From Leucobacter coleopterorum (lineage in GTDB: Bacteria > Actinomycetota > Actinomycetes > Actinomycetales > Microbacteriaceae), in the NCBI RefSeq assembly GCF_011382985.1, contig NZ_CP049933.1, positions 2,914,001 to 2,978,000 on the forward strand: a stretch of DNA of 64,000 nt, in the 5' to 3' direction. The notes beneath the pieces are model-generated. The model worked only from the letters and a program-made list of their open reading frames with translations, searched no databases and was not told where the DNA came from. Shown piece by piece: positions 11,218 to 38,902 of this stretch (position 1 is its first letter; every line of letters begins with the position of its first letter). A program made the translations under genes and the position numbers.

Positions 11218-11646
11218 TTACTCGACCGTGATGCCCATGGAGCGAGCGGTGCCCGCGATGATCTTCGACGCTGCGTCGATGTCGTTCGCGTTCAGATCAG
11301 CCTGCTTCTGCTCGGCGATCTGGCGAACCTGCTCAGCGGTAACCTTCGCCACCTTGACGGTGTGCGGGGTGCCGGAGCCCTTCTGCACGCCAGCTGCCTT
11401 CTTGAGAAGCTCAGCTGCCGGAGGAGTCTTGAGAACGAAGGTGAACGAGCGATCCTCGTAGACCGTGATCTCGACGGGCACAACGTTGCCGCGCTGGGAT
11501 TCTGTGGCCGCATTATAGGCCTTGCAGAACTCCATGATGTTGACGCCGTGCTGACCCAGCGCAGGACCCACGGGGGGTGCAGGGTTGGCGGCGCCGGCTG
11601 CGATCTGAAGCTTAATCAGACCGGTAACCTTCTTGGCTTTTGCCAT
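11218..11646 (-). CDS. rplK: 50S ribosomal protein L11
   Basis: 142 residues, full length. The N-terminus [15 protein letters not shown], the [19 protein letters not shown] segment and the C-terminal RNA-binding domain ending [11 protein letters not shown] are diagnostic. L11 forms the GTPase-associated centre with 23S rRNA. An SD (GGAAA) precedes the ATG. Unusually, the segment upstream does not run straight from nusG: a plus-strand AbiEi-like gene and its repeats intervene, so rplKA must have its own promoter in 11647-11990. Confidence 0.98.
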
Positions 11647-11831
11647 GATAGTTTCCTTTCAATTCGAAGCCGCACCTTGCGGTGCAGTTCTCCCGCCTCT
11701 CCGGCCGTTCCGAAGCGCGGTGTGGTTTGCGTGATTCTCGAAAGAAGCCGCAAACCAGACAAGCATACCTGAGTTGCTTGAATCTCGCACTTGTGGTGCC
11801 ACCACACCCTTGGGCACCGATCACGCGAAGA

Positions 11832-11889
11832 ACACCTCTTTCAACAGAGATGAGGTGCCCGTGCGGTTTTCGGTGCCGAACCGGCTCAC
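11832..11889. repeat. Upstream copy of a degenerate direct repeat bracketing the AbiEi/DUF559 gene
   Basis: The segment begins ACACCTCTTT (11832-11841), reads AGGTG in the middle and holds TCGGTGCCGAAC at 11870-11881. The same two words occur in the same order and one base further apart at 12932-12990, beyond the 3' end of the gene. Identity over the copy is about 70 percent by hand alignment. A third TCGGTGCCGA lies at 11925-11934. The gap 11647-11993 otherwise holds only the rplK leader and promoter region. Confidence 0.6.
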
Positions 11890-11993
11890 CCATACTTCGC
11901 TCACATGATCAGCCAGCGCCCGAATCGGTGCCGACTTATTCACAACCGCGACTTTCTCCTCCCGCCGCCACAATACTTCGACAGAATCTCAAC

Positions 11994-12944
11994 ATGGGCA
12001 TTACACAAGACCTACGGGATCGCGGCGGGGTCACGCTAACTGCACATATTGCCGCGCTCGGTTACTCGCCCAACGCGATTAGGAAGGCTGTGGACCTTGG
12101 CTTGGTCGTTCGTCCAAGAAAACGGTGGCTCGCTCTCACCGATGCAGATCCGGCCCTGGTCTTTGCCGCTCAACACGGCGTGATTTTGTCGTGCATCACT
12201 CAGGCAAAGAGGTTGGGACTCTGGGTACTAAATCACAATGAGGCTCACTTTGCGGCTAGATCACGCGGACGCAGGCTACAGGTTCACTCCGGCATTGTTC
12301 ACTGGCAACTCCCCCTGATCATTCGGGCACCAGAAACACTGGTCGATCCAATCGAAAACGTGCTTCACTGCGTCGCTCACTGTCAACCACACGACGTAGC
12401 ACTTGCCATCTGGGATTCAGCGCTAAATAAGGGCCTCACGGACTACGCGTCTCTGGACTCACTTCCGCTTAGATCTCGCGCAAGACAACTGCTCGAAGAA
12501 ACCACACCCTTCGCCGATTCAGGGTTAGAAACTTTCTTTCGGACCCGCTTGAGTTGGTTACAGATCTCAATTCGATTCCAGACATGGATCCACGGGCACC
12601 GCGTCGACTTCCTTATCGGCGACAGGCTTGTGGTTCAGATTGATGACAAGCAGCACTCTGGAACGCAGCGCACCGAGGACATGCAGCACGATGCAGACCT
12701 CACACGAAGCGGCCACCACGTGATCAGAGTAAACTACGAACTTGTTACGCATCGCTGGCACGTCGTGCAGCAGATGATCCTCGAGGCGATCTCACGCGGA
12801 CTACATCTGGTTCGTTGGACTGCGGGCGAGCGGGTGCAGGATCAGCCCGACGCCATTTGTGACTCCAAACCACCGCGTCTCAGGTCTCGTCACGAGCACA
12901 ATCACCAACAGGACACCGAAAAACCACTGGGACACCTCTTTTGA
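11994..12944 (+). CDS. Solitary AbiEi-like protein with C-terminal DUF559/VSR-type nuclease-like domain
   Basis: 316 residues from an ATG at 11994 (MGITQDLRDRGG). The N-terminal 80 residues form the winged-helix region of type IV antitoxins (AbiEi). The C-terminus has a PD-(D/E)XK-like pattern: Glu near residue 177, RVDFLIGDRLVVQID near 203-217 and the end VIRVNYELV. In DUF559 proteins the second motif is usually E-x-D; here it is Q-x-D, so catalysis is doubtful. No AbiEii toxin gene is adjacent. It interrupts the nusG-rplK junction on the opposite strand, and its stop codon lies inside the downstream repeat copy. The codons after residue 270 resemble no family I know. Confidence 0.75.
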   Translation: MGITQDLRDRGGVTLTAHIAALGYSPNAIRKAVDLGLVVRPRKRWLALTDADPALVFAAQHGVILSCITQAKRLGLWVLNHNEAHFAARSRGRRLQVHSGIVHWQLPLIIRAPETLVDPIENVLHCVAHCQPHDVALAIWDSALNKGLTDYASLDSLPLRSRARQLLEETTPFADSGLETFFRTRLSWLQISIRFQTWIHGHRVDFLIGDRLVVQIDDKQHSGTQRTEDMQHDADLTRSGHHVIRVNYELVTHRWHVVQQMILEAISRGLHLVRWTAGERVQDQPDAICDSKPPRLRSRHEHNHQQDTEKPLGHLF

Positions 12945-12990
12945 GCCCAGAAGCGGTGTCATACGCGGAATCGGTGCCGAACTGGCGGAT
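12932..12990. repeat. Downstream copy of the direct repeat bracketing the AbiEi/DUF559 gene
   Basis: ACACCTCTTT at 12932-12941 and TCGGTGCCGAAC at 12971-12982, spaced as in the copy at 11832-11889. The last codons and the stop of the AbiEi-like gene (12944) fall inside it. Confidence 0.6.
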
Positions 12991-13051
12991 AGTGACCTCC
13001 GGTTCCCGGAGCTGAGACCAAGACCCCAACGTTTAAGAATCACCCAAACGC

Positions 13052-13079
13052 AAAAAGCCCCGCCGAAGCGGGGCCTTTT
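13052..13079 (-). terminator. Rho-independent terminator after nusG
   Basis: Read on the minus strand: GGCCCCGC-TTCG-GCGGGGC followed by TTTTTG. It lies 10 bp past the nusG stop, so secE-nusG is closed off from rplKA. Confidence 0.9.
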
Positions 13080-13089
13080 GCAAAAACTA

Positions 13090-13911
13090 CTAGATCATCT
13101 TGGCGACCTGGTCGAAGCTGAGTTCGACCGGGGTCTCGCGCTCGAAGAGCGACACCAGAACCGTGAGCTTGCCAGCCGCGGGGTTGATCTCGCTGATCGT
13201 GCCGGGCAGACCCTCGAAGGAGCCGGACTTGATGGTGATGGTTTCGCCGATCTCGAAGTCGATCTCGACATTGCCGGCAGCAGCGGCAGTGGCAGCCGCA
13301 TTACCTTTGGCGGTCGCTGCAGGCTCAAGCTCGACGGTGCTCTTCAGCATTTCGAAGGCCTCATTAATGCGAAGCGGCACGGGATTGTGAGCATTACCAA
13401 CGAAGCCAGTCACGCCGGGAGTGTGACGCACAACAGACCACGTGCTCTCGGTGAGGTTCATACGAACGAGCACGTAGCCGGGGATCCGCACGCGGGTCAC
13501 CATCTTGCGCTGGCCGTTCTTGACCTCCATGACGTCTTCCATGGGAACCTGGATTTCATAGATGTCGTCTACAGCACCCATGGTCTCGCGTCGGTTCCAA
13601 AGGTTGGACTTCACCTTACGCTCGTAACCAGCGTAAGTGTGGATCACAAACCACTTGCCAGGACGGCGACGCAGGTCCTTCTTGAACGCCTTATAGGGGT
13701 CCTCCGCGGAGGCAGCTTCTGCATCCATCTCAGCCTCATCTTCGGCTTCCTCGTCAACAATCGCGTTGGCCGCAGCTTCAGCCTCTTCGGCGTTATCGAT
13801 ATCGAGGGCGTCTTCGACAGCAGCATCGGCAACGGGATCGGTGCCGTGTGCCAGTGCATCAAGCGCGGCGTCGAGGTCAGCCTCGGGATTCATGCTGTTA
13901 TCGCTCGTCAT
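13090..13911 (-). CDS. nusG: Transcription termination/antitermination protein NusG
   Basis: 273 residues. The NGN domain (about 85-185) contains WFVIHTYAGYERKVK and VPMEDVMEV; the C-terminal KOW domain contains GSFEGLPGTISEINPAAGKL. NusG binds RNA polymerase and links it to Rho or ribosomes. The N-terminal 75 residues are an acidic Ala/Glu/Asp extension absent from E. coli NusG but common in actinobacteria, and an Ala/Thr-rich linker (AATAAAA) separates NGN from KOW. It follows secE by 80 bp. Confidence 0.97.
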   Translation of the reverse strand: MTSDNSMNPEADLDAALDALAHGTDPVADAAVEDALDIDNAEEAEAAANAIVDEEAEDEAEMDAEAASAEDPYKAFKKDLRRRPGKWFVIHTYAGYERKVKSNLWNRRETMGAVDDIYEIQVPMEDVMEVKNGQRKMVTRVRIPGYVLVRMNLTESTWSVVRHTPGVTGFVGNAHNPVPLRINEAFEMLKSTVELEPAATAKGNAAATAAAAGNVEIDFEIGETITIKSGSFEGLPGTISEINPAAGKLTVLVSLFERETPVELSFDQVAKMI

Positions 13912-37635: not shown

Positions 37636-37711
37636 CCACGCACCCGGTATTGCCGAATGCACCCCTAGGTACCGCGATCTTTGGGTGCACTGGGCAACGA
37701 GGGGTGCGTGG
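37636..37711. repeat. 76-bp palindromic repeat, copy 1, at the 3' end of the AbiEi-like gene
   Basis: 29-nt outer arms 37636-37664 and 37683-37711, ends CCACGCACCC and GGGTGCGTGG, with inner TGCACCC/GGGTGCA. It is about 68 percent identical to the element at 38826-38902 on the other side of the gene. The AbiEi-like stop codon (37665) lies inside it. A GCACTC triple lies just before it at 37614-37631. Confidence 0.7.
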
Positions 37712-38702
37712 ATAGGCTGGAGACGGGTCTACGGCGAACAGGGATCGCGATCCCAAACGAGATAAGTCTGTCGCGAAACACACCCCGCGTGCGTAAGTGG
37801 GGCATGCCCCAACGGATCATTCGATAGCTCGTCACACCTCGGATCCAGTCTTCCCGCTGTTTCTCTTCGATAACGAGTTGGTTCGCGGTTTTCCCGCGTG
37901 TCATTTCGGGGTCCGTGTACTTCACAACCCCGTCAACCTCACCGAAGACACCAAGACCAAACAACTCAAAATCGACCCTGTAGGGCCGCCCACCGTATGG
38001 TGAGCGCACAGCCACCTGTGTCGCCACATCAAACCCGAAGTCTTCCAAGTACAGTCTGCTCACGCTTTCAGCCACCGACTCTGCGCTGCCATTGGCCCGC
38101 GCGAGAACTGTTCGGGCCGCCGCGTTCCCGCGCATACCTTTCACTTTTGAGACATGCTGCTGCGCCGCTCGGAGCCAGTCACGTTGTCGTTGCATACTCT
38201 TGCCGTCCCGACGCAGCGCCGCATCCATACTTCCAAGGCCAACTTCCAGTGAAGCAACCCTGGCAACATCCACTGCCGTCCGCATCAGTGAGGTACACAG
38301 GAACGGGCCGATTTGAATCAGGTCATCCGCTTCGAGCCGCCCTATATGGCGAACAATTTTGCCTTTGCTGTTCACCCGCGGCCCCTGCAATGCCGTCATG
38401 TGCAGTGGTTCATCTCGAAATTGGAACAGTGGAAGACGATGCAGAATCGCTGCTGAGTGATGGGAAAACACTGGCGGTTTTTCGGCTCGGGCAAGCGCCG
38501 CAAGCATTTGTATCAGGTGACGAATTTCGGAGGTCGTTTGGCGCCAGTATTCTGCGTCGACATAGCTGTCGCGCGACACTCTTCGCAGAAGGCCATCGGC
38601 CAGTGCACGTTCAACGCCTCGCCGGTTCAGGCCGGACGCCCGCAGCTGGCCGTAAGTTCGCAGTTGCGCCTGGGCCTCGGAGATCACTCGGGTTGAAAGC
38701 AT
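37665..38702 (-). CDS. Solitary AbiEi-like type IV antitoxin-family protein with nuclease-like C-terminus
   Basis: 345 residues. A winged-helix N-terminus (LRTYGQLRASGLNRRGVERALADGLLRRVSRDSYV) is followed by the AbiEi-type middle region. The C-terminal part has a PD-(D/E)XK-like layout: Glu in ESVSRLYLEDFGF, Asp in RPYRVDFELFG and GEVDG about 10 residues later. No toxin gene of the AbiEii type is near. Both ends are bracketed by copies of one palindromic repeat. The last 15 residues are encoded by the repeat and are Ser/Pro rich. Confidence 0.75.
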   Translation of the reverse strand: MLSTRVISEAQAQLRTYGQLRASGLNRRGVERALADGLLRRVSRDSYVDAEYWRQTTSEIRHLIQMLAALARAEKPPVFSHHSAAILHRLPLFQFRDEPLHMTALQGPRVNSKGKIVRHIGRLEADDLIQIGPFLCTSLMRTAVDVARVASLEVGLGSMDAALRRDGKSMQRQRDWLRAAQQHVSKVKGMRGNAAARTVLARANGSAESVAESVSRLYLEDFGFDVATQVAVRSPYGGRPYRVDFELFGLGVFGEVDGVVKYTDPEMTRGKTANQLVIEEKQREDWIRGVTSYRMIRWGMPHLRTRGVFRDRLISFGIAIPVRRRPVSSLSTHPSLPSAPKDRGT

Positions 38703-38825
38703 CTACCCATCGTCTCTGAGAAGCATCCGTCTGGGGCCGATATATGGGCATTGTGAATAACTCGGTGACTTTGCCGTTAACTCTCCGTCTGTGAACGAAG
38801 GATCGGACCGCCGGCAGGCAGGAGT

Positions 38826-38902
38826 CCGTGCACCCAATACCGCCGTGAGCACCCCTTGTGCACCCTGAATATCGGGTGCACTCGACAGCAAAGGGTGCAC
38901 GG
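38826..38902. repeat. 77-bp palindromic repeat, copy 2, upstream of the AbiEi-like gene
   Basis: Outer arms 38826-38854 and 38874-38902, ends CCGTGCACCC and GGGTGCACGG, with an extra GTGCACCC/GGGTGCAC stem inside. Compared with copy 1, the two changed bases near each end (AC to GT and GT to AC) preserve pairing. It lies between the AbiEi-like start (38702) and the end of the PIN gene (38966). Confidence 0.7.

Follow-up and report, generated by a model that had tools for sequence, protein, structure and literature searches.

Matched palindromes around AbiEi-DUF559 fusion genes of Leucobacter and relatives, a probable REPtron-like unit built on an unrelated enzyme

A gene whose product combines an AbiEi-like reader with a DUF559/EDxHD nuclease was found between two copies of a long palindrome in a window of 64,000 nucleotides from Leucobacter coleopterorum (contig NZ_CP049933.1, positions 2,914,001 to 2,978,000). 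The association of genes of this family with matched palindromes is strong: left and right flanks resemble each other at many loci in Leucobacter and other genera, and further palindromes of their class lie scattered across the genomes that were examined. On balance, the gene and its two palindromes probably represent a REPtron/REPIN-like unit resting on an unrelated enzyme, with its own palindrome family. The enzyme may mobilise or copy the palindromes, as suggested by their distribution; movement of palindromes or gene was not observed in the genomes compared.

The gene and its palindromes in the window

The gene (11994..12944, plus strand, 316 aa) lies between rplK on the left (11218..11646) and nusG on the right (13090..13911), both on the minus strand. 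The fusion was assigned from Pfam and fold matches. DUF559 matched the protein over the cut-off (E 2.9e-7) and AbiEi_4 below it (E 0.014), while AbiEi_4 was found by Pfam in 19 of 24 family proteins. Neither NCBIfam nor PADLOC had a model matching the window protein, and no AbiEii nucleotidyltransferase toxin was present next to the gene in the window, the neighbours being rplK and nusG. The earlier note had described the plus-strand AbiEi/DUF559 gene as the only one between the repeats, which was borne out: three more open reading frames (ORFs) overlap the bracketed stretch, two of them antisense and one extending into nusG antisense, and none had a Pfam match over the cut-off. A terminator of nusG was likewise recovered, as a terminator-like hairpin read from the sequence at about 13050..13080 on the minus strand, outside the bracketed element.

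The left palindrome (11813..11881) has half-sites at 11815, 11833, 11852 and 11870, the right palindrome (12912..12982) at 12914, 12933, 12953 and 12971. Each is imperfect and about 70 bp long. Its four half-sites share the core CACC, which reads GGTG on the opposite strand; a forward pair is followed by a reverse pair, and the two half-sites of an arm are spaced 18 or 19 bp. The repeat pair ACACCTCTTT and TCGGTGCCGAAC reported by the earlier note was confirmed in the same order on both sides (11832-11889 and 12932-12990), and its two words proved to be two of the four half-sites of each palindrome. The pattern ACACCTCTTN{20,40}TCGGTGCCGAAC matched twice in the genome of 3,215,551 bases, both times bracketing the gene, and its reversed control gave no match. 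As to whether the two copies match better than random pairs, the window taken by itself is modest, with a score of 13 that was reached by 1.45% of cross-locus pairs. The weight of the pair comes instead from the four-half-site anatomy of about 70 bp and from the family-wide pairing described below. Predicted folding energies, based on RNA parameters, were −36.0 and −31.7 kcal/mol, which places the window copies at the weak end of nine solo copies in genome G016 (−35.4 to −48.5 kcal/mol with RNA parameters).

Of 71 loci measured in the genus, a set that includes the window locus, 54 encode proteins of 270–280 aa. The family profile match on the window protein stops at aa 273, and an extra C-terminal tail of low AlphaFold2 model confidence (aa 274–316; 12813..12941, plus strand), delimited by the profile end and the lengths of its relatives, runs into the right palindrome. 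The stop codon (12942-12944) sits within the right copy because the protein extends about 43 residues beyond the usual end; the usual stop codon seems to have been lost. The window protein is also alone among 59 proteins in having D in place of G218. The lost stop, this substitution and two comparatively weak palindromes suggest possible decay of the window copy, its catalytic residues being intact.

Another AbiEi-type gene in the window (37671-38702, minus strand; AbiEi_4 E 0.021, below the cut-off), probably the other AbiEi-type gene of the earlier note, gave no match to the family profile of the gene described here. It is flanked by GCACCC half-sites 19 bp apart, at 37640/37659 with 37683/37702 on the left and at 38830/38849 with 38874/38893 on the right (region 37640-38898). 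A similar arm pair was located at genome position 362113/362156, with a pattern whose control also gave matches (7 vs 13).

Matched flanks and dispersed copies in relatives

Matches of the window protein were found in 44 of 54 Leucobacter genomes, its own included, with none to four matches to AbiEi-DUF559 fusion genes per genome. A scan of named genomes, restricted to the best 80 of 324 relatives, contributed further loci from Microbacterium, Agromyces and a few others. For each gene, the 300-base left flank was compared with the right flank. Within-locus scores averaged 18.1 at 68 Leucobacter loci (of 71 located) against 9.0 across loci, and 27.3 against 9.9 at 51 loci (of 53) from the other genera, 26 of which exceeded the 99th percentile of cross-locus pairs. 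A score of 17 or higher was reached at 49 of 119 loci and by none of 236 control pairs, which do not straddle the gene (222 at full spacing, the rest at no less than half of it); for a score of 14 or higher the counts were 58 of 119 and 1 of 236. The other 61 loci scored below 14 and have no clear pair. A site cluster of eight loci, L028 among them, has no matched pair at any member, and neither has L004, a paralogue in the window's own genome. At the matched loci that were read, most pairs were long near-perfect palindromes, the left one like the right one and differing from locus to locus, with the second copy at or past the stop codon.

A gap-free hairpin search across the 119 loci found palindromes with a score of at least 12 in the left flank at 53 and in the right flank at 48, with 27 loci having one on both sides, compared with one of 60 control stretches inside genes. 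The arms of the 67 better palindromes repeat themselves at a lag of 18 bp (z 14.3) and 19 bp (z 6.5), with a further elevation at 21 bp (z 4.7), these z values being too high because related loci are included among the 67. In an alignment of 16 copies drawn from G016 and G000, the outer CACCGA/TCGGTG never varies, and substitutions in the spacers compensate each other in pairs (23 cells versus a shuffled mean of 10.8, none of 500 shuffles being as high, a value inflated by the relatives among the copies).

At some loci the likeness between the left and the right copy greatly exceeds that seen between orthologues (L005 31, L012 38, L132 81 and L230 83, the cluster medians being near 11). Such an excess is absent at some other loci, and it hints at concerted change of the two copies without being proof of it. 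Palindromes differ between gene lineages, and over 51 loci protein similarity and palindrome similarity are correlated, at a low rho of 0.21 (Mantel p 0.001).

Solo copies were found dispersed in several genomes. In G016 the palindrome of the junction type occurs at 12 places, two bracketing the gene and about ten solo, as counted by hand after removal of six single two-mismatch matches (the reversed control gave two); a full palindrome is present at nine of the ten places away from the gene. The palindrome type of a second gene in G016, at the ddl site, occurs at 13 places, two of which bracket that gene, and its reversed control gave none. Two palindrome types and two genes thus coexist in this chromosome. 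In the window genome the junction type is found as a solo palindrome at least three times, at 205782, 649634 and 1032859, and probably a fourth time near 3127813; the pattern used gave 18 matches, most without a palindrome, and its control four. Where read, for a few copies and by eye, solo palindromes are intergenic.

In G007 and G008 the window gene is absent from the junction between nusG and rplK, yet a palindrome is found there. Its arm occurs 27+27 times in G007 (30 places by hand, about 28 solo) and 34+35 times in G008, with no match to the reversed control in either genome. Of all G007 copies, a single pair is separated by less than 2 kb; between its members lies a divergent MTES_1575/DUF559-like gene, of which the longest ORF overlaps the upstream copy and the likelier start lies inside the bracket. 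The same bracketed arrangement was observed in homologous surroundings in G008, and both proteins fall below Pfam cut-offs. Four other palindrome pairs in G008, 1.0–1.6 kb apart, contain no such gene by motif scan; where palindromes are plentiful, pairs therefore arise around other genes too, and the pair arrangement alone is no marker of the gene in G008. At five solo sites of G007 the coding flanks could be aligned with G029, where the palindrome is missing from all five; in G008 four of the five sites could be resolved, and each of these four has the palindrome. At the divergence of G007, G008 and G029, no target-site duplication or clean junction was readable at these sites, and palindrome loss could explain the absence in G029. 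A palindrome search in G028 gave few copies.

Palindromes that are ordinary terminators, or that arise by chance in GC-rich intergenic DNA, would, like the copies seen here, lie between genes and fold stably. This explanation is nonetheless very unlikely, as it accounts neither for a likeness of left and right beyond all 236 controls, nor for the arm period of 18–19 bp, nor for dispersed families private to genomes.

History at the nusG-rplK junction

The nusG gene was located in 50 of 54 genomes of the genus. The junction was resolved in 31 of these, window included, as rplK and nusG were both in the sequence retrieved around nusG; in the 19 others rplK fell outside it. By tblastn, a homologue is present at the junction in ten of the 31 genomes, in G050 within a longer insert, and 21 are without it. 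Carriage of the gene here by all relatives, which would have spoken against an insertion, was thus not observed. The earlier note had further taken the junction to be normally free of other genes, which did not hold: of seven longer junctions that were read (L072, L079, L080, L085, L087, L088 and L110), most contain unrelated genes. We take this cargo to be look-alikes of a molybdopterin oxidoreductase, malate synthase, carboxylesterase and IS256-like transposase.

An empty site with a single repeat copy was looked for in the 21 gene-less junctions and none was found, the best scores for the window palindromes (7–11) being within or one point above those of 20 shuffles. The junction of G051, which has the most similar NusG, was considered as a clean empty site and rejected; the gene is absent but a different palindrome-bearing insert is present. 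Other long palindromes were seen by eye at the gene-less junctions L064 (G051), L068 (G044) and L069 (G028), two of them in tandem in G028.

On a tree built from 120 proteins, the nine junction proteins included cluster in a single supported group (98/92), within which L115, from another site, is nested; L013 and L026 were excluded on account of their length, and L013 reads on through nusG antisense. Given this single group, one old insertion in Leucobacter with later losses fits the sequences best. Thirteen labelled sites require 15 changes on the tree, with a minimum of 12 and a shuffled mean of 55.4, and five of the 13 are not single groups. With so few site changes, the genes are mostly vertical at fixed sites, as has been reported for RAYT genes at the species level (PMC3116915). 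Two loci from an assembly titled Planococcus sp. APC 4015 (L178 and L209) carry genes that fall within the Microbacterium part of the tree, and this assembly may be mislabelled or mixed.

The proposal that the gene is an insertion thus stands in so far as a gene was added to the junction, and finds no support as to recency, one old origin fitting the tree best. A recent insertion with target-site duplication, the reading of the earlier note, would produce same-order repeats as in the window and a gene missing from 21 of 31 resolved junctions, but the single old origin, the lack of a one-copy empty site among the gene-less junctions and the fact that the repeats are palindromes that also occur solo leave it barely credible.

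A free-standing homing endonuclease, with the palindrome as target and the gene spreading by cutting gene-less alleles, would agree with the patchy presence at the junction and with the nuclease domain, for which I-Bth0305I is the closest match by fold and the second by sequence. By this analogy, single target palindromes of the window type would be expected at gene-less junctions, and the 21 examined have none; a single origin at the junction fits, and the solo palindromes at many sites and the two copies per gene are left unexplained. Homing is therefore considered unlikely.

The enzyme and comparison with known systems

The AlphaFold2 model of the window protein (mean pLDDT 89) consists of two parts. 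Residues 1–171 of the model match the AbiEi antitoxin 6y8q (Z 9.7 over 170 residues, rmsd 4.3) and residues 176–270 match homing endonuclease I-Bth0305I, 3r3p (Z 12.4 over 94 residues, rmsd 2.6); the modelled nuclease part also matches Vsr, 1vsr (Z 9.6 over 95 residues, rmsd 2.3). The sequence profile of the nuclease part matches 3hrl and 3r3p (the latter at E 3.4e-4). An EDxHD catalytic domain is thus present by profile and by fold, and all 59 proteins compared have E179, D217 and H221, with D205 present in 58 of them. dN/dS was 0.05–0.20 in 13 of 14 pairs, the fourteenth, window–G016, being saturated.

AbiEi is described as binding long inverted repeats, with arms of up to 23 bp, and as repressing its own promoter (PMC3985639). 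The family could accordingly be read as AbiEi-like DNA-binding regulators or antitoxins, with the upstream palindrome as operator and the dispersed palindromes as an operator regulon, and the commonest AbiEi model of PADLOC does match 22 of 24 family proteins. Against this stand the second copy at or beyond the stop codon of matched loci, the invariant nuclease core, and neighbours in the window that are rplK and nusG instead of a toxin. A regulator is possible but rather doubtful.

Y1_Tnp (PF01797), the Y1/RAYT transposase family, had no match in any of ten genomes searched, with a search that gave matches in 5 of 14 controls, and is absent from the Pfam matches of 24 family proteins. A Y1 transposase as owner of the palindromes was rejected on the result from the ten genomes, and the enzyme-plus-palindrome system was for the same reason filed as one built on an unrelated nuclease.

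For the preferred REPtron-like unit, the AbiEi-like part would read the half-sites of the palindrome of about 60–70 bp, probably in dimeric form or as a dimer of dimers, and the EDxHD nuclease would cut the palindrome or the DNA next to it. As the cut is repaired or replicated, palindromes would be copied into new intergenic sites, and the two copies flanking a gene would tend to stay alike. Inheritance of the gene is mostly vertical, like that of RAYT genes. Dimers of I-Bth0305I are reported to form on a target that spans nearly 60 bp (PMC3943268); this target size and the arm size given for AbiEi both fit the palindromes.

The chances seem about even that Actinobacteria possess a second, independently evolved class of REPIN-type palindromes, served by AbiEi-EDxHD nucleases of the Vsr fold in place of HuH enzymes, with private four-site palindromes that co-diversify with the enzyme. 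Two such systems might run in parallel in one chromosome, as G016 suggests with its two genes and two types of palindrome. If true, AbiEi-DUF559 fusion genes, now filed as unknown or as antitoxins, would gain a concrete role, enzyme-plus-palindrome systems would have arisen more than once, and the spread of REP-like palindromes would become testable with a nuclease of known fold. Scans for defence genes that label such proteins AbiEi antitoxins may mislabel them. No description of an AbiEi-DUF559 palindrome system was found in the titles and abstract openings of the open-licence papers that the literature searches listed.

In the RAYT/TnpA_REP REPtron, as described in the cited reports, the gene is flanked by its own palindromes, solo palindromes are dispersed and enzyme and palindrome are paired (PMC3116915, PMC8266576, PMC3733652). 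The system described here shares the flanking by an own palindrome class (at 49 of 119 loci; not seen at the others), the dispersed palindromes of that class in the genomes examined, the pairing of enzyme and palindrome and a mostly vertical gene. It differs in its enzyme, AbiEi plus Vsr/EDxHD as opposed to the HuH Y1 of the REPtron, and in palindromes of four half-sites with a period of 18–19 bp. The nuclease fold of the window protein is that of I-Bth0305I and Vsr, and the target of I-Bth0305I, nearly 60 bp (PMC3943268), fits the palindrome size; unlike I-Bth0305I, the window gene has an AbiEi-type reader and two palindromes, and no intron or intein was seen at it. With the AbiEi type IV antitoxin it has in common the N-terminal fold and a long palindrome, comparable to the palindromic operator reported for AbiEi (PMC3985639), and it is set apart by its fusion to a nuclease, by having no neighbouring toxin and by palindromes that lie on both sides of the gene and are dispersed as well.
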